Assembly (NCBI RefSeq): GCF_028389875.1
Contig: NC_084664.1
Location: 116,257,966-116,321,965 of the forward strand
Length of the DNA stretch: 64,000 nt
DNA from: Rhea pennata
Taxonomy: Eukaryota; Chordata; Aves; Rheiformes; Rheidae
Direction: 5' to 3'
This document shows positions 1-47,219 of this stretch, piece after piece (the stretch's first letter is position 1; every line of letters starts with the position of its first letter). Made by a program: the position numbers and the translations under genes. The notes below the pieces were generated by a model, which ran no database searches, was not told where the DNA came from, and was given only the letters and a program-made list of their open reading frames with translations.

Positions 1-3000
1 ACACAACAGCATTAGCATCTATATATAAACCTTAGATGCTCTTCAGCTGTACTCAACTAAGAGATATCTATTCTAGCTCAGGAAGGCTAGTGGTAAAAGC
101 AGTTGGGGGATACTTTATTCACACAGTGATAAATTAACCTATGAAGCACATCTCTAAGGATAGCTCTAGGAATGACTCGGATGCAGAGGGATCCAGATGG
201 ACTTTTTGACCTCCTCTTTTGCAGCTCCCTCCATGGCATTTGCTAGGATTTTTCAAAGCTAAAAGGTTGGAGGACACAAAGCTTTATTCTCATATTTTAG
301 TCTCGAGGCTACAGAAGCTTCTGCATTTATGTCCAAGCAATGTTTGCCTCCAACAAATGTGAACTGTGCTGGGCAGCTGTGGAAGGAGGGAAAAAACAGA
401 AAAGCCTTGTGTCTGAAACATTTGTGTTTGTGTGCATCCTACCCTGTACAGCTGGTCTGACTCAGCTCTGAGGAGATACTGTGCAGCTGTTTCTCTGGAG
501 CAATACCTGTGGGCAAACAGCAGCAGAGTCCAACATCTATGTACATCTTCCTGATCTCTGGAGTTCATTTTGTCCCTACTCTGTCATGTTTAATCAGGAA
601 ACATTAGACTTTTTCCTAGTAGATATTCATGTGCATACGTTCAATACTTGCAGGGCCAATCTACCATTGTTCCAGTTTTCCTATTGATGTTTTTCTTTCA
701 AATCAGAGCCCAGGGACTTGCTGAAAGCCCAAATCTGATCTTTTCAAAGTCACTTACTTTCTTGCCAGGACACTGTTGACTCTGTTAAAATTCTGCAAGA
801 CTGGATTCAGCTGGTGCAAGCTGACTTCCTCTCTTCAGTGAAGCTGAGGAAGGATCTAGTCTCCCATCTCTGATCCAGCAAATTGAGGCAGATGAGAAGC
901 ATTCCTCAGGGGGCAAATCTGCTGCTGCCTAGAAAAAGTGCTCAAATCCAAAGCGGCAGTAGTCACTTGAATAAGCCTAGAGAAGAAGGCTCTACATATA
1001 TCTCATTCCAGCTCTGATGGGCTCATTTGTCTAGCAAAGCAGGGAATAAAATAAAATAAACAAAAAATGCATTCTAGTCTAAAGGCAGGACCAGCTATCT
1101 TCAGCAAGGCACTGGGATGCCATGAAGATGAGGATAGTTTAAGTAGTAGAACAAAACAGTGCTGATGTCAGTGGAATTATCGAAAGATTTTTTTGAGGAA
1201 AAAAATAAAAAGAATCTGCAGTACCCTAAGCTATGCTGTTCCAAAGCAAAGCAGCAATTCCCACAGAGTAAGTGAGACTAATCATAAAGTAGAATGGGAT
1301 AACAGTAGAATACTTACAATGCCAGAAGGTTCCAAAATGTGTAAAGTAATCAATTTTTAAATTGCTCAAGGAAAAAAAAAAAAAAAAAAACTCATGGCAA
1401 ATGATCCTTGAGAGGAACAGTAGCAGAGCTCAACTGGCTCTGTGGTGGTGGTAGGGCAACAGTCATGATCCTCTTCAAGTTAAAAGTCATATAGCTCAGA
1501 AATAAGTGTAAATAAATGACTGAGTCATTAGAATTCCAGTGGGGCATGCAAAAACCTCAGACAGTAGCTGATCTCCCATGATTTCCCCTACTGATCTTGT
1601 CCACTGCTGGGAAGGAGCAAATCCAGTTGCTGTGCAAAGCTGTGCGTTTGTATGCAGTGTGCTCTTTCATGCAGACACAGAGCCCACTAATACAAACTCC
1701 AGCATTTCAGCGTTTTCTAAGGAGATTCATAATCCAACGGGAAGTAGAGATGAAACACCATATGCAGGCAGTTGCTATGTGTTAGTGCAGAAAATAGGCT
1801 GTGACTGCTGTTTGCAGGGCATAACCTGTGAGCCCGGCAGAAAGCTTGTGCTCTCTTTGTCGTAAACAACAAGGTGAGAGCCAAATAGTATCTGCTCCTT
1901 TCTCCCTTCAAAAGAAGCTTGTGATAGGCTTTTTTAGCTAGATTATTTTGCAGCCTTTGTACTTCTTAGGATTGCTTTTCTAATGGGGAAAGAAAGGTCA
2001 AAAGACATTAATACCCAAGATAAGAGTTATCAATATGATATAAATATAGCAGCTTATGAAGTTTGCAACACACCACAATCTGCAGCAGATAAAAGAGTTT
2101 AAACCCAAAGGAGCGTCATAAGGAAGCTGCTAATGGGAGTGTCTAAGTTTTCTTTTTAAGCAAATGACAGGGCCACAGCTGCTGCGTGCAACGGTTGCTG
2201 CTGAAGCCATCGCCCCTGAAGCTCAGAATGAAGGCATCACTCAAATCAAGACGCGTCGTAGCTTGTTCTTCTCTGCACAATGGCTGAGACATGATCCCAC
2301 AGCTGACCTACCTGTTTACTTCCAACAGGGACCACATTTTTGCCCTGTGAGTGACACCACAGTGCCAGTAATCACTGTGTCAGAGCTACACTGCAATGCT
2401 CTTCCTTGCCTATGCTGTTGATTTCCTGTTCCTTCCAGGACCTTGCTATTCTAACCCTGGAGAGAGCAAAATCACCTTGCCTTTCTAACTCTCATGACAC
2501 CTAGATTCCTGTTTTGTGAGTGCCCCCAAAACATCAGAGTGGCTCCTGCTTTAGGTGCCTGTGACCCAAAAGGATGCAATGTTGTTTTACCTGAATTCCC
2601 TTCAAAATCTGTTTCAATACAGTACATACAGAGGATGTGTATAGTAAGATACACATCTGCCACCCCCCAAAACACCCCTAAGCTTCCTGTGAAATAGTGG
2701 TGTGGCAGACCCTGTGGCCGTATCCAGCATCTCAGGACATTAAGACAAACAGACTGCCTCATGGAGTGCAAGACGTGGGGTTATCACGCTCTGCACGCTG
2801 AGGGGATTTCAAGCTGGGGACCCACGGGCTAGGCTCTCTGCACCTCATAACGACATTTTGCAGGAAGATCTGTAAGGTCTGCAGGAAAAAAATGGAATAT
2901 GACACAGGTGTAGCAGTTACAGTCTTCTGAGTATGGAGCCAGGCAACCAAACTGTAATTGCTATAGGGCCTCACTTCACTTGCCTGTGTTCCTTACGGAA

Positions 3001-3430
3001 GGTGGGTCTTAAAACTCTTGCCGTAGTGAAAGGACCTATATCACAAAGGACCTACTGATACAAAGTGCCTATATCATTTCTGAAAAATAAGGTGAGGACA
3101 TTTGTATTATCCCTTAGCTCTCCAATAGCTTACATTAGTTTTAAATTTATCTAGCAAAAAATCTATGATTATCATATTCTAGCATAGATTTTGTTCTAAT
3201 TGGTTTAGCTTGTTTTCATAAAGATATTGAATCACTTACTCATCTCTTCATTGACAGAAATATTTTCCTGCAGTAAATCATTGATTCTCAGCCTCATACA
3301 CTTCCAGATTCTTCTTGAACATGCGCTATTTGTCTGATTTTTTTTTCTCATATATTTCAGTCATGAGCCTTAGGGTTTTAAAATATTTTGCAATGATCAG
3401 ATGACGCCTTTTCTTTTTTTCTGAACAGAA
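1..3430. other. Intergenic DNA downstream of AQP4; no gene seen
   Basis: AT-rich sequence with only short open frames (all under 100 codons) that show no recognisable domain. The one distinct structure is a run of 19 A at 1372-1390. The region lies beyond the proposed AQP4 polyadenylation site. I see no splice-flanked exon, tRNA or conserved protein motif. Confidence 0.5.
1372..1390 (+). repeat. Poly-A tract (A19)
   Basis: Uninterrupted run of 19 A. No target-site duplication or SINE/LINE body is evident next to it, so it reads as a simple mononucleotide repeat. Confidence 0.9.
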
Positions 3431-3432
3431 GT

Positions 3433-3438
3433 TTTATT
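3433..3438 (-). promoter_or_regulatory. AQP4: Candidate distal polyadenylation signal of AQP4 (AATAAA)
   Basis: The plus strand reads tttatt, giving AATAAA on the transcribed strand, followed by AACTTCTGTTCAG and an A-rich stretch. It is the farthest of three AATAAA hexamers after the AQP4 stop codon. The choice among them is inference. Confidence 0.35.
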
Positions 3439-5534
3439 TGCAACAGCAGTGTGAGATACAGCAGAATACAAGTGGAAAACAGATAAGCATGCAGTATTTT
3501 ATAGTATATTCTTCAGTAGATTAGTCCAAATATCACATAAGGAAATTTTAAATCTTATAATATTAGTTTTGGTATTATAGTGTCCAGACATTTCAACAAG
3601 AAGCAGTCTTGCAGAAAAATCCATGTATTTACCTGCTTTACCTCATTTATCCTAAATTACAGAGATCACATCACTATGGTTTAGATCATATAAGTGGGTA
3701 ACATATTTCAGTCTGCATTTGCATCATGCCTGTTTAATAAGTCCTCAAGAAACTCAGACACACACAGGTTGATTTGAGATTACAAGAGATTTTGTATGCA
3801 TCTCTCACCTTGGAAGGAAATGCTCACAATGTAAATTATCACGTTTCATTTAGATTATAAATATTGGATGGTGTATAACATTTTGCTAGCATGGGTTAGC
3901 ATAGGCTGCAGATAAAGTGTTGCAAGCACAACAGCAATTGCTCTGTAACAAAGTACTAGGAAGAAATCATATTTGAAGGCTATCCAGCTTTTCAAACAGC
4001 TACTGTGCTTAACTATTAAAAGTCAGAAATGAAACATTTCAAAAAGCTCATGTACTAATACAGGTGAGAAACTTAAGCGTTATATATGATATGCAGTGTC
4101 TCACTCTTCCTTCCACTGAATGAATGAAAGATACAGCTCTCAGTACTTAAATAGGAGAAGGATTCCGATATCTCAGATGCCATACGATTCTTATTTTTAC
4201 CCGTTCTGAGAGCAGTTAGAATTTTGTTGATAAACTCCTTAGGGTCCATACAACCTGAAAAGTATTTGCATATCCCTGTGTAACCCACCTTTAAATTTCA
4301 CCCTTTCTCTTCTGAAGTCCAGTAATTAAATGATTTGAACTCACTTATTAGAATGTAAAAGTACTGTTGGAAACAGTCCTGCCTTCATGGAGGAGCAAGG
4401 GGCTCATCCATCTTTTATATTTTAGGATCTGAGAATTATGACAACATGCCTGGCATGCCTACTGCAAAATTGATCTCCTATTGTAAACCAAAGACATTTA
4501 CCATTTACCACCTCAACCAACAAATACTTTTAGAGGACATCAAGTTGTATTACTAACTGCAATATAGAGCTGAAGGTCTTTTAATGTAAACCTAACTCAA
4601 AAAGTATTAAAACATGTTTTTAAATCACACTAAGACAAAGTACTCACAGGCCATGAAAAAGATTACACTGGTCTATTATTTAACGAAATGTAACTTTACG
4701 ATGATGATGGCTGCAAAACAACTTAAAGGACAATGTAGCCCTACAGGTTAAAGCTGAATCAAGCCCTGAGGCATGTGTAAGTGTGATCGTCCCTTCTGTT
4801 AATGGTAATCTCTTGTGGTAGGGCAGAACCAACAGTGATGACAACTACTGGTAAGAATTTACTTTAGAGTGGGTCATAAAACTCATGTTGAATGCATCTC
4901 CTTCTAGAATTAAGCATCCTGCTCCAATTTTGCAGAAATCACAGCAAAGTATATGAGAAGCCATGAGGTCCCGAAATAGCCCAGGATTAAAGAAACTTCT
5001 CCACAAGTCGTGTTCGGTGGGAGCAGGAACAGACCTACCATATCTCACCTTCCTGATTATATCTACAGAGAACATCCTTTACTAATGCCCTGTTTATTTT
5101 GGCTTCCCCTCTTTCCCTTGATCTTTGCTCAGCAGCCTGTACCTTATCTTCAATATTCTTTCTGTGAGGAGTTCTCCTGGGACCGGTTCCGAGAGTTTGC
5201 CACAGTTCATTAATGAAGAAGAAAGAAGAAAGAGTCTCCTGACTTGGCTAATATTATACTAATGTTATGCTCACCTCAGCAGTAGAATCAAAGTGGGTAA
5301 AGAAAATATACATCATGCCATTTGTGTAAAAGGACCCTTAAGCATAAAACAAGTCACAGCTTCTTATTTAAATAATACCCTGCAAAATTCACAAATTATT
5401 AGCTTTCACAGTGTTTCTGAATATCAAAACACAAAACTTCTTAATAATCCACCAGGGCTACACACATTACTTTGTCCACCGAAGCCATGCAAAAGGTTTA
5501 TCAAAATGCCCCTTTAACAAATATGGCTTTTTTA

Positions 5535-5552
5535 GGGTGGGGTGGGGAGGGG
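5535..5552 (+). other. G-quadruplex-type motif (four G-runs, 1-nt loops)
   Basis: G3-T-G4-T-G4-A-G4 on the plus strand, the shortest-loop form of an intramolecular quadruplex consensus. It lies on the strand opposite AQP4 transcription, so the putative 3' UTR RNA would carry the complementary C-rich block, the kind of site bound by PCBP/hnRNP K proteins. Confidence 0.7.
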
Positions 5553-5574
5553 AATAGAACAAATATCTAAAGGG

Positions 5575-5594
5575 AAAAAAAAAAAAAAAAAAAA
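5575..5594 (+). repeat. Poly-A tract (A20)
   Basis: Run of 20 A, 22 bases after the G-rich block. It is poly-U in the AQP4 sense direction. Confidence 0.9.
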
Positions 5595-5927
5595 GTAAGT
5601 TTCATACTTTCGCACCCATCTAAGAAGAGTCATGTAGGGGATCTAAACACCACATTTGTGTTGTCCTTCCCACAGGAAGCTCACTCCTTGCTGCAGGAAG
5701 GACCTCTTATCTGTCATTTGAAATGGTGTCTTGAAAGCCCCTAACCATGCTCATGCCCTAGCAATGCTGTCACTGTGTCAGGTATTCAGCTGAGGACAAA
5801 TATCCAGCTACTTTACCAGAATCCACAGGTAGTCACTGCTGTGATGCCTCAACAGGTATGAGATGGAGCAGGTAGGATGGTGGGAGTGGGCAAAGGTCCA
5901 GGATTGCTCATACTAGAAGCGCAATCC

Positions 5928-6072
5928 CATGCCCACACATGCAACATGCTGTGCAGTAACTTAGGAAAGCTCATTCCTATGCCTACTTGTGCCATATGTT
6001 ATGTGACCACTCAAGGAAGCCTCATGCCATGCCCACAGGTGCCACATGCCATGCTTAGCCTACAGAGCCCTA
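5928..6072. repeat. Degenerate minisatellite, 50-bp period, about 2.9 copies
   Basis: The phrase CATGCCCAC, or its variant TATGCCTAC, recurs at 5928, 5978 and 6028, exactly 50 bases apart. It is followed each time by related text (ATGCAACATGCTGTG, TGCCATATGTTATGTG, TGCCACATGCCATGC) and then an AGGAAG-like segment. The copies have diverged by many substitutions but keep the period. The repeat lies in the probable AQP4 3' UTR. Confidence 0.75.
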
Positions 6073-7816
6073 CAGCTGCAGGGAGCAGGAAGAAAATCAT
6101 GGCCAGACTGGAAGCAGCTGGTAGAGTCACAAATCTCACATCCCATGCAGTGAGTTTGAGAGCTTCTCTAACAGGGCTTTTAACACAAGAAAAGTAAGAT
6201 CAGGAAAATGAACATAATAGGATACACTAGAACTATCCAGTGTTACGAGCTGGGATAGTAGAATTGGCCTTGAATCATAGTAAAGCACTGCCAGACTCAA
6301 ATCTGTGCGCTATCTCCTCATTAGAAACATCTAATTCCCTCTGATAAAGATTGTATATGGAGTAACGTCAAAGAGAGGCAGATCTATTACAGGCCACAAT
6401 CGAGACTCATGCTTTCTCTCTCCCAACTCCCTCTTATTGCCAAGTAGGCAGGAATTTGTTTTCAATTTTAAAGTAAAATCTATACAATTACTGTAATAAC
6501 AAGACTTTTGATTGCTCTGCAGCTGCATATTGTAAAACTCCAAGCAACGGATTGAAACAAAAGCCAGTAATAAAGTCAACAGCTTTATAGAAATGTTTTG
6601 TTTGGTTGGTTATGTCTAGTGAAATACTTCATACAAGAGAAAGACTAATTTATCATATTTCATTCCCTTTTCCCCTAAAAAATCTTGCAAGTGCTGGCGT
6701 TTCTTCCTAATAGATTAAAAAAAAGCTTCACCAGAGAGGTAATTTAGACTATAGCAATAGCAAAACAAGCATGGATCCTGTTCAATGAGAGATCAATTAA
6801 AACAAAAAGCCAGAAGCAGTCATTTTATCATGCTATAAAAAATATTTTCCAATCAGTGTTTCAATACAGTTAACAAAAATTAAAAAAACCTCTACATTAC
6901 TAATAAATTTTTAAAAAATCTTATTTCCAACAATTTTGTAAGAAAGTAGATAAGTAATTTAAAACTTCAGTTTACATAAATTGGCACAGAAATGTGTGTT
7001 TGAACAAGTGCACTGAAAACAGATACGCTTTCTTTTCTTCTGATATCTCTTGAGTTATTAAGTAACAGGAGAGCCTTCATATTCTCTGCATGACCTTGAG
7101 AGTCTGCTAGCACTAAATGGTCAATAGTCAAACCTCAGGAGAATGTTTCACCAGAAAGACAGTGACATGAGCTAATATGAAGAACAGTCAAATACTTTGC
7201 AGCCTTATTACAATAGGTTTTAATTTTCAGTTTCAATGTATTTACTCCTGGAAATGTATAAAAGTAATATATTTATACTGGAAACCAAATGAGTGAAACT
7301 TGATGGGGTGAGATTTTTAAAAATCTATAAAATATTATTTTTTCAGAGGTAGTTTGCAAGGCAATAATGATACGTGCAAACGGAAACAACATTCCTTTGC
7401 TTGACTTTGGATATAAGTCTTAAATACCATTGATGTTGTCCCTGGACCTAGCAAAGAACACTTATGGGTAAGATGTCTTAATCAGAGTTGACAACAGCCA
7501 ATTAAGTGTCAGAAGAACAATCTGATAAGTAGATCTTCATGTCTATAGGCATTTCCTGATACATCTTAACTGTCAATCTGAATGTTAAACATCTCTATCT
7601 TCATTTCATTGACTGATTTATTAGAGGAGAATGCTTTCATCTCATTTTTGACTTTGGAGTTGTTCCATAAAGGAGGAGAGGAAGAGAATAGGGACATCTC
7701 TTAATTTTGAGTAATGTGTAGGGAATCCTAATTCTGGTAAGATTCTAGTATTCCTTCTGAGTTTGGTGATGCCAGTATCGTGCACCATACCTTCTGGGAA
7801 ATGGTAGATGCTTAGT

Positions 7817-7906
7817 TTACAGGAGATCTGTTTCTTTAATAGGTGGAAGGATATCTGTGGACATGCTAGCAGGCTGCTCTCTGCTTTCAGTGCTCCTTGC
7901 TAGTCA
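7817..7906 (-). CDS. AQP4: Predicted stop-codon read-through extension of AQP4 (AQP4ex-like)
   Basis: The AQP4 stop codon (7906-7904) reads TGA followed by CTAG, the UGA-CUAG context known to promote translational read-through in vertebrate mRNAs including mammalian AQP4. Beyond the TGA the frame stays open for 28 sense codons and ends at TAA (7819-7817). Counting the decoded stop this adds 29 residues, the length reported for human AQP4ex. The extension starts LARSTESREQ, is rich in Ser/Thr/Glu, and ends in TDLL, so the SSV PDZ ligand becomes internal. The context and open frame are seen directly. Use of the read-through product in this species is inference. Confidence 0.7.
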
Positions 7907-8182
7907 TACAGAAGACAATACCTCGCTGGACGGATCTCTCCCTTTCTTGTCTTCACCCCTGTCGATATCAATCACATGAACACCACCAGGCTTCAGGATC
8001 AGGTCATCAGTCTCTACATGGCTCCTGTTATCATCCACCTCCATGTATTTCCCTTTGGATGGCTGAGCGGCCTTGCTGAACACATCTTTAAAACGGCGCT
8101 TAAGTTCAACATCTGGGCAATAGACATATTCATAAAGAGCACCAGCAAGAACTGCTCCAATTATTGGCCCTACCCAATACAC
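7904..8182 (-). CDS. AQP4: AQP4 coding segment 5 (terminal; TM6 and cytoplasmic tail)
   Basis: It encodes residues 232-323 (92 codons plus TGA). It follows a strong acceptor, CTCTCTTTGCAG, at 8183. It begins VYWVGPIIGAV (last transmembrane helix), then the tail with the KYMEV tyrosine motif (Y277), S285, T289 and the terminal SSV PDZ-binding sequence. The mammalian segment has the same 92-codon length. Residue 276, a serine in mammals and a reported CK2 site, is lysine here. The stop is in read-through context. Translating upstream of 8182 gives unrelated intron residues, so the acceptor sets the start. Confidence 0.97.
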   Translation of the reverse strand: MYWVGPIIGAVLAGALYEYVYCPDVELKRRFKDVFSKAAQPSKGKYMEVDDNRSHVETDDLILKPGGVHVIDIDRGEDKKGRDPSSEVLSSV

Positions 8183-10747
8183 CTGCAAAGAGAGGTGGAA
8201 AAACACAGGCATTAAGCTATAGAACAAAGAATCCCTGGTTGTCAGACAAAAATAGATTACTACAGACTTCATCCAGAACACTTCCAGCAAAAAGTCCTGG
8301 TGTAGTTTTTTTAATCAACTCTCCTTTTTTGGGAAAGCAATCACATAGTTCCCTAGATGTCATGAATCAGGATGAATTTGCCCTCATACCAAGTCTATAG
8401 GACAGAGAAGTGTAACTACCATAGCTTTCACAGCTATTGACCTGGAGCTCAGCAATCATGTGACTTCTAAAGTCACACAATAAACTGGTCAAAAGCCAAA
8501 GACTTAAAGAGTTCATGGCATCATTCTCATGTCATGGGTTTCTTCTGTGTTATTATATTTATCTCTGCAGGCTCTCAGTCTCTCTTCTCTTCACACATTT
8601 TTTCCTCTTCAGAAATACTCACTAGGCATCTAGAATCCAGTTATCTAATCACTGGTAGGCCCTTCTTTTCCCTAAAAAACTCCTCTCACATCAGAGTTTA
8701 GACAGTGTACCGCAACAGAGCGGCCAGGACAGAAGACACCTCTGTAGATGTGTGAGTGAGGTAAGGTTACAACTCTGATGTCTGAAGATTTCCATCCAAA
8801 TATCTGATAACCAATCTACTGGGGCAAACGGCAAAGGAACAGTGAAGTTATATATTTAGATGGACATGCAGGCATTCTTTCTCTGCCCTACCCTCCTCTT
8901 CTGTTAATAGAAAGCATTTTTTCCCCTTTTTGGGGAGATTTAATGTATTTAAACTTTGTGCAGTAAGACAAAACACAGGCCCTTCATCATCCTTCATTGG
9001 TTCAACTATAGCTATAAAATTTCTTGAGGAAAAAAATAGGCCATAAATCCTTATGGAGTCATATATGACTTGTCATATACAGCTCCATAGTCACATACAG
9101 TTGCTCTGGAATAGCTTTGCTTTTACACTACCAGAGGCAAGATGATAAAGAAATAGGCACATAATATCTTCAAGGAGAAACAGTTTTGTTGAGCTTTATA
9201 TCTTTTTCCATGAGGCCTTCTCTAAATTTTGACTGCTTATTTGTCAGCTCTAGATAACATATTTATGCTGCTTGCAGGATGACACAAGAAAATAAACGCC
9301 AGTGCAGCAAACTGGTTTTCTTGCTGCATTTTCACTCAAGAGGATGATAAACTTGTAAGGAGACAAAATCTTTCAAAGCATATAAACAAACAGAACAAAT
9401 GGGTCTACTTCAATGTTTAGGACTCACAATTCAAAAAGAATCCAGTAGAATCCAACAGGCAGTCAGATATCTGATTAGAGCTGAATAAACAAATACAATA
9501 GGCATTCAACTTTGCAGGGTACCTATTTATTTCAGGACAACCTGTAGTAGGCCTGTAACATTAGCAGGTGTGGAAGCCCACTAGGCTTCCATTAATGGCA
9601 TGCTAATGTCACTACTTTGAAGGAAGAGGAGAAGGCAATCTCTCCAAATGACCAGGACAACAGTTAAGCTTCTCCTACAAGTTTCTACATGATGTATTTG
9701 CTTATTGTTTACAGCTTTACTTATAAATTTCAGACTGCCTCAGAGTATGGGTAATTAATCTTGTGAAAAACTACAGCAGTTTTTCATATGAACATGCCAT
9801 TCACTAATAACAGGGTAAATCTGCTTCAATAGGATAACTCCTGGGAACAAAGTTACACATGGTATCATGTTTGCAAAATTGGAGCCTTAGGGCCTGACGA
9901 CAATGCTATTTCTGTTATTAGCTGCAGTGGGAGCAATGCAGGCTCCATATTTTAAAATTAAGAAAATCCTTATACACACTGTAGTATACAGCTTTTTCAG
10001 TACTAACTGTAACTGTCTCTAGAAGCACTTGTAGTCTCTTTAATTAGGTGAAGCTCAGCTGCAATCTTTCTCTCCTTATAAAACATAAATTGTTTTTTAA
10101 GAAGTTTAATAGAGATGATGTAGAAAATGACTGCATCATTCATGATCCATTTACCTAATGGCTTCCTGCACAAATACTCTTAGACTGATCCTTGCTAATC
10201 AAAGCAGGTAACATCTGACCTGGCTTGTAAAAGCCAGACTACAAACCCTTCATCTCTCATTGGTGATCGTTTGCTGAGGAAGGTTCTCTCCCTGCAACCA
10301 GATTGAGGTCCCCACTCCCATTTTATGTCTGCCACAATTTGCTGTAGAATCAGGTAAAATGTGAAGCCAATCAAATTACTTCCATAACGTCTCACCAGCA
10401 TGACTTGGGGCTTTGCAACCTGCCTCAGAGGATTTTTCTTTCTAGCAGTTTCTAGTCTCACTGGATTGCTTTTGTGTTTCAAGCTTCTTGAATGATTTAC
10501 TTCCTACACTAGCTACTGCCTCCACAAAAAGACCCTCAAATAGCAAGATGCGATCTCACCATATTGTGTACAACACCAAAATCCTAAGCAAAGCTTTTGT
10601 AGTAGAGCTTGTGGCAGGTCAGCATCCGTCTTCCTCAGTGGTGGCCTCTCTGGGATATGCTAGGATAGATAACTAAAGACAAGTGATATACGAAAAAGTC
10701 CTGCTAGATATTTTTTGCTATGGCAAAAGAAATATGAAAGCCATTAC

Positions 10748-10828
10748 CCATTGGTTTTCCCATTTCCCCATGACGACAGCAGGTCCAAATGATCGGGCAG
10801 GGTTCATACTGGCACCAGTGTAATTGAT
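10748..10828 (-). CDS. AQP4: AQP4 coding segment 4 (second NPA half-helix)
   Basis: A short 81-nt exon encoding residues 205-231 ([18 protein letters not shown]...), too small to appear as a separate open frame. It contains the second NPA box (N213), A210 and R216 of the selectivity filter, and an NYT glycosylation sequon at N206. The acceptor is GTCTTTAG at 10829 and the donor is TGG|GTAATG at 10747. The exon length equals that of the mammalian gene. It is separated from the next segment upstream by only 396 bp. Confidence 0.97.
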
Positions 10829-11224: not shown

Positions 11225-11389
11225 AGCAAATAAATGTCCAATTGCAACAGAAAATCCAATTGCTAAGGCTACTGAACCAGTGACATCACTTCGTTTTGAA
11301 TCACAGCTGGCAAAAATAGTAAAAACCAGCTGGAATGTAATTATCAGCTCCACCAGGAGTCCGTGGCCAGCAGAAAGATCTCCATGTAC
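11225..11389 (-). CDS. AQP4: AQP4 coding segment 3 (TM4-TM5)
   Basis: It encodes residues 150-204 (55 codons): VHGDLSAGHG, then the hydrophobic LVELIITFQLVFTIFASCD helix, the loop with S180, and the AIGFSVAIGHLFA helix carrying the filter histidine H201. The acceptor TTCTTTCAG precedes 11389, and the donor GCT|GTAAGT follows 11225. Both boundaries are phase 0, as in mammals, and the length of 165 nt is identical. Reading past 11225 enters intron sequence. Confidence 0.97.
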
Positions 11390-12244: not shown

Positions 12245-12659
12245 CGTCGTGACTCCCAAGCCGCCCACCACACTGGGTGGAGTGACAAGGTAGAGGATGC
12301 CAGCCCCCACGATGGCCCCCAGGCACTGGGCGACGATGTAGAAAACAGACTTGGCAAGGCTGATCTTCCTAGTGCAGACCATCGCAATGGTCACCGCAGG
12401 GTTAATATGGCCTCCGCTGATGTGTCCAAAACACTGCACCATGGTTGCAATGCTGAGTCCAAAGCAGAGAGAGATAAGGACCATGTCGACAGGTAGGGGC
12501 TTCTCAGATCCGCCCCAGTTGATTGTAGAGCCAAGGCTGAGGAGGACAAAAATTAGCATGGCCAAGAACTCTGCTGAGACAGCTTTCCAGAAGGGCTGAG
12601 TCCAGACTCCTTTGAACGCCACCATGATGCTCTCACAGTTGCAGAGACGTCTACACTTA
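12245..12659 (-). CDS. AQP4: AQP4 coding segment 2 (M23 start, TM1-TM3, first NPA)
   Basis: It begins one base into the codon of G11 after the acceptor CTACTTTTCAG (AG at 12661-12660) and encodes [11 protein letters not shown] and then M23. M23 (12625-12623) has A at -3 and G at +4, a strong initiation context, so the segment alone can start the shorter isoform. It contains F77, the [10 protein letters not shown] box (N97) and S111 (RKIS). Cysteines 13 and 17, the known palmitoylation sites of mammalian M1, are kept. It ends VGGLGVTT at a weak-looking donor, ACG|GTAATC. From M23 the segment holds 127 codons, as in human. Confidence 0.97.
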
Positions 12660-16863: not shown

Positions 16864-16895
16864 CCCCGGCGCGGGGCGGCCGCTGCGTCGCTCAT
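16864..16895 (-). CDS. AQP4: AQP4 coding segment 1 (M1 start exon)
   Basis: A 32-nt coding piece: ATG at 16895-16893, ten codons MSDAAAAPRR, then GG, and a consensus donor GTGAGT at 16863. Spliced to the acceptor at 12660 (next exon base T at 12659) it reads RR-G-KC, with phase 2 matching. The result is exactly 22 residues before M23, as in mammalian M1, whose N-terminus also begins MSD and ends in a W/R-G-KC junction. The ATG has G at -3, a moderate context that would allow leaky scanning to M23. No other MSD-type exon was found in the 4.2-kb intron. Confidence 0.88.
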
Positions 16896-33828: not shown

Positions 33829-34926
33829 CTATACAACTGGTGATGTATAATTGAACATTAAGTAATCCAAATAGTAGAAGTCATAGGTCAGCTGTCTCTC
33901 CTGCTTAGACAATTCCTTTAAGTATTGCCTCACTACTTCTGCATTTGTTCTTTCATCAGAGGAATGTCGGTCTTTGAAATTAGGAAACTTCAGCTCAGCT
34001 GGAGCACCTACCAACTGCAAAAAGTAATTGGCATCTTCTTCCAGGGTTTCAAACTTTCCTATAAAATCATAGTTGATGAGGCAGGGATAGCAGAGCTTAC
34101 TGACTTGCTCCCAGTGTATGTCCATTCCTACTGGTCGATGGGAATCTAACAAATACTGGATAAACTCTTTAAACTTAACTCCTGATCCTGTTTTCAATGC
34201 CTCTTCATTTGCATTTTGCCTGTATTTCTTAATTATTGCCTTCCCAAATACTGGATGGTAATAGCTGTTTGGATGTTCAAACTTATCCCTGAATGCAGAT
34301 ACCAGTCTTTCCATTGGATCACGTACAAATATAGTCTTAGTGTAAGTGTTCAAACGTGTGTATATCCCTTTTAGGTCATAACTGTCTAGTTTCTTTAGAT
34401 GCTTACCATAGTGAACATCATCATGGGATATGTTGTGTGCTGAGGCGGCAAGTCCATTGAGCACCATGAGAACCCTTTTCCAGTTGGAGCAGCCTGCTTT
34501 AGGCACTTCGCAGTACAGGATCTTGTGTCTATCCTCCACATAAATCCTTGACACCACATGCACAAGGTGGGTTCGCAGCTTCTTTCTGCTGTTGTATTTT
34601 TTACAGAAGCCATAAAGGAAGGATCTGCGTTTTTCCTGGGCACCATCAACATCCTTCCACTTGTCTCCCTTGAGTAAACTCTTGTTTAAAGGGTGCATTG
34701 CAGGGGGCAAATACACCTCTCTGAACTGGCTGAGAAACAACTCGGTCCTCTTCTGCTGGTCAGACAATTGGCTTGCCAAGGAGAGAGCTACCACGCCAAA
34801 AGGGTCAGCCTTCTTCTGTGAATGCCTGTGCTCCAAGGCCACCATCTCTTGCTTGCTGAGGCCAGCAGGAGTGCTCCTGTTCTTGGCTGCTCTCCTTAGC
34901 TCCCCAGGAGGTGGGAGCTTGAAATC
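33829..34926 (-). CDS. CHST9: CHST9 terminal coding exon: GalNAc-4-O-sulfotransferase 2
   Basis: A Golgi type II enzyme (GalNAc-4-ST2, HNK-1/carbohydrate sulfotransferase family) that moves sulfate from PAPS to the 4-OH of terminal GalNAc on glycoproteins. The exon begins after the acceptor TCTCTCAATGTTTGCAG (AG at 34928-34927) in phase 0 and encodes 365 residues to TAG. Counting from its first residue, the 5'-PAPS motif [12 protein letters not shown] is at about 140-151 and the 3'-PAPS motif RDPMERLVS at about 202-210. Sequons NKS, NIS and NYT are at about 81, 165 and 359. The human protein is 443 residues, so roughly 80 N-terminal residues, including the membrane anchor, come from exons outside this window. 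The upstream in-frame ATG at 34989 is intronic. The catalytic half resembles CHST9 rather than CHST8 (for example [18 protein letters not shown]). Confidence 0.95.
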
Positions 34927-36992
34927 CTGCAAACATTGAGAGAATGAGAGCTTAAAAAGCAGTGACAGCACAACTGAGCTCATCCACATTGTATCACTGA
35001 TCAGAACGGTGGTGCTCGTTCACAGGCATGTGTGCACGTTGGCAAGGCACATTCAGTACTACAAAATCTGTTTGAATCACTTGATCGACACACCTAATTT
35101 AGCAGCAAGCTGGGCTAATTATTGAAATACATGCTTCTGAAGCTTACCTGTTAGCGAACAGTAGGTCTTCACACAAAAATAAATAGCTTAAACCAAACCT
35201 TTTAAGAAACCAGAAGAGGTTCATGCGGGGAGGCTGATAGCTCTGGTAGGGGTGACCAGGTGCTTTTCTGTACCTAATACATTTTTCCTCCATGATAGGC
35301 TGGCTCACTCGCACTGGTGTTAACAGCTTTCCACAGTGCACTGACACAATCAAGCTGGCAGCTTCTGCATCTACTTTTACCAGTGTGATTTGGAGCAGGC
35401 CTTGTTACTCCGTGGTTGCAGGGCCAGTGCTTGTGGTAGCAGAACCACACTACAGTTCCTAACTAACTAACATCAGGGGGTTTGAGCTGGATATAGTGAC
35501 AGTGGAAAACCTTCTCCATAAAGGGTCACTTCCTGCCCCACTACAGATATATCATGGAAGTGGGATGCATCTGCCTACATGCAGGTACCGGCAATATCCA
35601 TCCCTGCATCTGATCCTGCTGCTTTCACAGTTGATAGGGTAAAAGAGTAGCTTTTAGAGCTTATGTCATCTGATCTATTTAAACATCAACATTAATGACA
35701 TCACCTGCCTAAGTGTCAGCCAGTGACCTTGCCAAGAGTGTGAAAAGATGGGACTTTCCTCCCAAACATCTCTTCTAACATTACCAGCTTTTGTGCAACA
35801 GAAATGGCAAAGCTTGTATCTGCATTTTGTGGTCTCCAGGGTCTAGTAACATGCAAATTGACCAAAGATTTTCTTGCAGTTTGGGTATTGCTGTTCTCTC
35901 ATCCCAAAGTGAGTGTTCTTGTGTCTGTTAAGGCTTGTATAGTATTTCTCCTTTCAGTAGGCAAGTCTGTAGCATTAGGAGGTCTACCCAGCTGCCTATT
36001 TTCATTATGCTTCCTGAGAAGGGAGACTCTGGTCAACAGGTTTTTAAACTTTGCATGGCAAAGAAAAGATAGCTAAAAGCCATAATTTGATGGACAGTCA
36101 TACATAGATTGCCTGATTTCATAAGTCTAATTTTTTAAAATGAGTGTTAAATTGATCAAGAATTTATCTGGCAAGCTGATTTGTGGACTGGCAGACTGCA
36201 AGTGTGAATTTGAGGGACAGGAAATTCATAGCCGATTCAAAAAAAGCTGTTAAAATTCAGACGAATAATCTAAGAAAAGTGAGCACATGGAACACAGATC
36301 TGAACGCCAGTTTGAAATAAGGCCCGCAGAAAAACAAGCAGTTCCAAGAAATTTAGCCTATCTTGCAGTATAATAATTTCCAGTGACAAAAATAACACTG
36401 GGGAATCGAGCTATTCTGAACTGCCACAAACCTCTAAGTACCAGCTCTGTTTTCACTGAACCTCATTTCAGTAAAATGATTTTTATATTGATGAAAGCAA
36501 ATTTAAGAACAGAGACATTTAGAACTTGCACATCTGAGAGCAAGGGCATGCTGGTGTTTACAGGGTTGCAAAAGGCTACTCAAATTGTTTCAGTTTGGCC
36601 TGGTCTGCTTATCTGATATTACCTAATTTTTAATCTTGGTTTTTGATATTTCATTCTTTAGAAAGCTAAAATGCATGTGCCTAAAGATTTAGCTCCTGTA
36701 CTAGGATGGAAAAAATTTAGGAGCATGGTTAGTATATAATAACAGGAGGTAGTACTAGCAATAAAACAGAGGAAGTCCATGAGCCTAATGGGAATTTCAG
36801 CATCACAGTGAATGACACCTTATAAATGTTACCACGGAACCACAGGCTTGCAAATAAAGAGAAATTAAATAAATGTTTTGACCTTAAAAGGAAAATCTGG
36901 AATTTAAAAAGATGAAAATGTGTATGGTATACCCAAAAACTAACTACACAATACAAGACTCAACAAAGGTAGGAATAAATTTGATGATGATA

Positions 36993-46261: not shown

Positions 46262-47219
46262 CAGAGATCTCTGTGCAGTTGCAGTGCTACGATCTCATTA
46301 GGATCCCAGAAACACAGTGGGACAGCTCATCTGGCTGGAGTACTGCCATGGATGGATACAGACTCTTTATGAAGACAGGCTGGGATAGCAAGAAAGCGAA
46401 GCTTTCTTAGGCAAAAGAGCAGCAGGGATGCCTGGAGCTCTGCCTAGGGATGCACAGTGAGCCAGCTGAGAGCTCATGGGTCAGGATTAGTGGGCAGACA
46501 AACCTGGGCAACATTGTGATGGGTATCTGCCACAGACCTGGTCAGGAAATAGATGAGGTCACCTTCATACAATCAAAAGGAGCCTCAAACTTGCAGGCCT
46601 CAGTCCTCACGGGGGATTTGAACTACCCTGGTATCTGCTGGAAGGGCAGCACAGCAGGGAGGTTTCTGAACTCCACTGATGACAACTTTGTGGCACAGGT
46701 GATCAAGGAGCCGACAAGGGTACATGTTCTGCTGGACCTCATACTCGCAAACAAGGAAGAATTGGGCAGGGATGTGAAGGCTGTAGGTAGCCTTGACTGC
46801 AGTGACCATGAGATGGAGTTCAGGATCCTACAAGAAGGGACCAAGAGAAAAAGGATTACAACCTTGGACATCAGGAGAGCAGATTTTGGAACATGTTTGG
46901 CACTGTTTATACATATCTAATGGAATGGGCTAAAATAGACATGGTCAGTGGTGCCCAGTAACAAGATGAGAGACAATGGGCACAAACTGAAACACATGAA
47001 ATTCTAGCTGAACATAACAGAAAACTTTTTTACCATGAAGGTGATTGAGCACTGGAATAGATTGCCCAGAGAGGCTGTGGAATCTCAGTTCGTGGAAATA
47101 TTCACAACCTGGCTGGACACTGTCCTGAGCAATCTGCTCTAGCTGATCTTGCTTTGAGCAGGTGGGTTGGGCCAGACAATCTCCAGAGGTCTCTCCCAAA
47201 CTTAACTATTCTATGATTA
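46262..47219 (+). mobile_element. CR1 LINE, endonuclease region joined to 3' tail (internally deleted)
   Basis: From about 46262 to 46905 the sequence follows the CR1 ORF2 endonuclease domain. A frame open from 46450 to 46920 reads GDLNYPGICWKG, DLILANKEELGRDVK, GSLDCSDHEM and RRADFG, which are CR1 landmarks including the GD-N and SDH active-site motifs. The 5' part upstream of 46450 is frameshifted. At about 46910-46940 it jumps to the CR1 3' region (GTCAGTGGTGCCCAGTAACA ... TGCCCAGAGAGGCTGTGG ... CTCCAGAGGTCTC) and ends in ATTCTATGATT, the CR1 3' terminus. The whole reverse transcriptase, about 2 kb, is missing. The copy is non-autonomous and decayed. Confidence 0.93.

Follow-up and report, generated by a model that had tools for sequence, protein, structure and literature searches.

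An AQP4 stop codon in a published readthrough context, followed by a 28-codon extension, in Rhea pennata

Readthrough of the aquaporin-4 (AQP4) stop codon has been described across vertebrates, where the features of the site are a GTA last codon, a UGA-CUAG stop and an extension of typically 28 residues (Loughran 2014, PMC4132726). The human AQP4 sequence gave about 7% readthrough in a reporter, which was almost lost on deletion of CUAG, and further deletions indicated that the 12 nt 3' of the stop were enough for readthrough (Loughran 2014, PMC4132726). The UGA-CUAG stop is common to OPRK1, OPRL1 and MAPK10, which encode different proteins with different extensions (PMC4132726). Extended AQP4 has been described as AQP4ex or AQP4x, and birds were among the groups named as conserving the extension (PMC9138620). 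A sauropsid AQP4ex would therefore be no novelty, and the readthrough extension of AQP4 is an already known and expected vertebrate feature, in mammals as in other vertebrates.

By influencing where the brain's main water channel is located, the extended isoform has a bearing on the water balance of the brain and on the clearance of waste. In mammals, extended AQP4 is reported to associate better with alpha-syntrophin and to be required for anchoring at the endfeet (PMC6444679, PMC10701521). Mice without the extended isoform lost the endfoot location of AQP4; immunoblots of their cerebrum showed alpha-syntrophin down by about 40%, and perivascular alpha-syntrophin was less reduced in the cerebellum (PMC6444679).

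The window analysed here, a 64,000-nt stretch of Rhea pennata DNA, contained a complete AQP4 gene on the minus strand. Five coding exons, joined at GT donors and AG acceptors, encoded an uninterrupted protein of 323 residues in which both Met1 and Met23 were present. The exons, in order of translation, were as follows.

16864..16895, minus strand: AQP4 exon 1, coding part, with the M1 start (splice junctions, alignment to PDB 8v91)
12245..12659, minus strand: AQP4 exon 2, with the M23 start (splice junctions, alignment to PDB 8v91; Pfam MIP match at 12245-12658, E 2.6e-36)
11225..11389, minus strand: AQP4 exon 3 (splice junctions and reading frame, alignment to PDB 8v91)
10748..10828, minus strand: AQP4 exon 4 (splice junctions and reading frame, alignment to PDB 8v91)
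7907..8182, minus strand: AQP4 last exon, coding part, 92 residues with an SSV end (translation, exon model)

The predicted protein matched Aquaporin-4 of PDB 8v91 over its full length (281 of 323 residues identical, E 3e-192), the next-best aquaporin being far behind at E 1.6e-71. Similarity to PDB 8v91 was lowest in residues 1-22, where 12 of the 22 were identical. Since the five spliced exons give an uninterrupted 323-residue AQP4 with Met1 and Met23, the TGA at 7906-7904 is a real stop. Features at and beyond this stop are listed below.

7904..7906, minus strand: TGA stop of canonical AQP4 (translation, exon model)
7900..7909, minus strand: readthrough context GTA-TGA-CTAG (GTA last codon and CTAG as in vertebrate AQP4, PMC4132726)
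7820..7903, minus strand: candidate readthrough extension of 28 codons, LARSTESREQPASMSTDILPPIKETDLL (translation; length and TESR block as in published AQP4ex)
7817..7819, minus strand: TAA ending the extension (translation)

Translation of 7817-8182 on the minus strand ended in SSEVLSSV, a stop, LARSTESREQPASMSTDILPPIKETDLL and a second stop. GTA lay directly 5' and CTAG directly 3' of the TGA, and the 28 sense codons following in frame were ended by the TAA at 7819-7817. The preliminary description of this DNA, which had reported a TGA-CTAG followed by 28 more codons and a TAA, with an extension ending in TDLL, was borne out on both points, with the strand now identified as minus. Its count of 29 added residues including the decoded TGA, the length of AQP4ex, likewise agreed with the 28 sense codons observed here and published for AQP4ex. 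Sequence, frame, context and gene integrity were thus all directly observed.

Several features were shared between this locus and published AQP4ex or AQP4x (PMC4132726, PMC6444679, PMC9138620, PMC10701521): the GTA-TGA-CTAG context, a run of 28 sense codons ended by a stop and hence 29 added residues, TESR at residues 329-332, and SSV before the first stop. The mouse sequence spanning that stop, assembled from two published guides (PMC6444679), matched at 25 of 31 bases including all 10 of GTATGACTAG. Besides TESR, the first half of the extension had diverged from that of human, with nine of 14 residues different. The five identical residues, TESR included, were found on aligning the antibody peptide DRTESRQDSLELSS of human AQP4ex by the published positions of Ser331 and Ser335; a match as good was reached by 1.1% of 20000 shuffles in register and by 16% in any register, the latter not significant. 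A full-length human extension, of which only 14 residues are confirmed in papers, agreed with LARSTESREQPASMSTDILPPIKETDLL at 17 of 28 positions and at 11 of the last 12, a comparison that we take as a lead only. The extension had no match to solved structures up to E 10 or to Pfam up to E 1.

The best reading of the locus was that of an intact AQP4 whose TGA is read through to give a minor AQP4ex-type isoform with 29 extra residues, and on the sequence we regard this as very probable. Some ribosomes would decode UGA in the weak context GTA-TGA-CTAG owing to the CUAG that follows, probably by means of a near-cognate tRNA. The product would be a minor AQP4 isoform carrying 29 extra residues and orthologous to AQP4ex (AQP4x). 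If it behaves as in mammals, it would join the M1 and M23 forms within orthogonal arrays and, with alpha-syntrophin, contribute to retaining the channel at perivascular astrocyte endfeet. It is from the published forms that we infer, by analogy, that readthrough takes place in Rhea pennata, how strong it is and what the tail does.

Alternatively, the TGA-CTAG and the open frame may have been retained by descent or chance, with the extension not made in useful amounts. Chance expectation was taken from all TGAs on both strands of the whole window, where at least 28 sense codons followed 528 of 2551 TGAs, and exactly 28 followed 28 of them. As about one TGA in five is followed by an open frame as long, the open frame alone is no evidence, and its length was rejected as a sign of selection. 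A different frame, opening just after the TAG within CTAG (7899-7645, minus strand), was open for 85 codons and so was longer than the extension; it was taken as chance. Both counts would suit mere retention, as would the divergence of the first half of the tail from human. Against it stand the context, the last sense codon and the length, which are all as in published vertebrate AQP4ex, and the rarity of the context itself, as CTAG came directly after no more than 6 of the window's 2553 TGAs. Three TGAs on the two strands combined CTAG with at least 28 sense codons, and a single one, the AQP4 stop, combined CTAG with exactly 28. The AQP4 extension is lifted above chance by the rare TGA-CTAG standing at a genuine stop and by the resemblance to AQP4ex as published, and retention without useful production was considered improbable.

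UGA encodes selenocysteine, and the AQP4 TGA could in principle be recoded in this way by means of a SECIS element in the 3' UTR. This candidate was rejected and is given almost no weight, as no SECIS family was among the six Rfam hits obtained up to E 10 in positions 1-9000 on both strands, and readthrough of human AQP4 in cells depended on CUAG, with 12 nt after the stop being enough (PMC4132726). RNA folding as a stimulator of readthrough showed nothing unusual (z 0.59), as 150 of 200 shuffles folded equally well or better. That neither a SECIS family hit nor a stable structure was found in these searches is in line with the published sufficiency of 12 nt (PMC4132726).

With readthrough to an AQP4ex-type isoform as the preferred reading, the effect of the tail on anchoring can be considered. 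Burial of the SSV ligand by the tail had been proposed to alter syntrophin anchoring. SSV did stand directly before the stop, but burial as a mere loss was not upheld, since in mammals a gain is reported (PMC6444679, PMC10701521). As the mammalian extended form was reported to associate better with alpha-syntrophin, a gain is the expected change in anchoring, and the mammalian data therefore indicate that the tail does not merely bury the SSV ligand. An anchoring role of the tail in Rhea pennata would follow by analogy with those data.

Regulation of the tail by phosphorylation may differ. Human AQP4ex has a phosphorylated serine at residue 335 (PMC9138620), whereas residue 335 of the extension here was a proline. 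An RXXS motif at 335, which does not define AQP4ex, was reported in human, macaque, mouse, rat and wall lizard, and the conservation of Ser331 and Ser335 was described as partial (PMC9138620). No R-x-x-S/T motif occurred in the extension (7820-7903, minus strand), in which Ser331 was present outside any RXXS. The missing RXXS at 335 is therefore consistent with the pattern of partial conservation given in that report (PMC9138620). In the canonical tail, residues 313-316 (exon 7907-8182, minus strand) read RDPS and thus formed an RXXS motif, in place of the KDQS of PDB 8v91, so that the AQP4 C-terminus as a whole is not devoid of such motifs. Judged from the sequence, it is conceivable, if rather unlikely, that an AQP4ex made in this lineage without RXXS sites would be anchored without regulation of the Ser335 type found in human brain. 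Were this so, an old and conserved anchoring role of the tail would be separable from a regulatory role limited to some lineages. The Rhea pennata extension is consistent with the published view of readthrough as ancient in vertebrates, to which its lack of RXXS sites makes one modest addition.

No measurement of AQP4 readthrough in chicken or other birds was found among the titles and abstract openings of the open-licence literature, which is weak evidence of absence. With the 92-residue last exon as query, a search for AQP4 relatives retained one of 109 pattern matches in the prokaryotic collection, an 18-residue match on an archaeal contig that was not used, and none of eight in the viral collection; both collections are uninformative on vertebrate AQP4.

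Two other open frames were observed in the window. A minus-strand frame of 396 codons at 33832-35019 carried a Sulfotransfer_2 domain (E 3.3e-74) and is probably the last exon of CHST9, the neighbour of AQP4 in human. A sulfotransferase-domain frame near AQP4 fits an ordinary vertebrate locus. On the plus strand, a frame of 169 codons at 46411-46917 weakly matched the endonuclease-reverse transcriptase family PF14529 (E 0.00087, which falls short of the curated cut-off), and we take it to be probably a remnant of a CR1-type retrotransposon.
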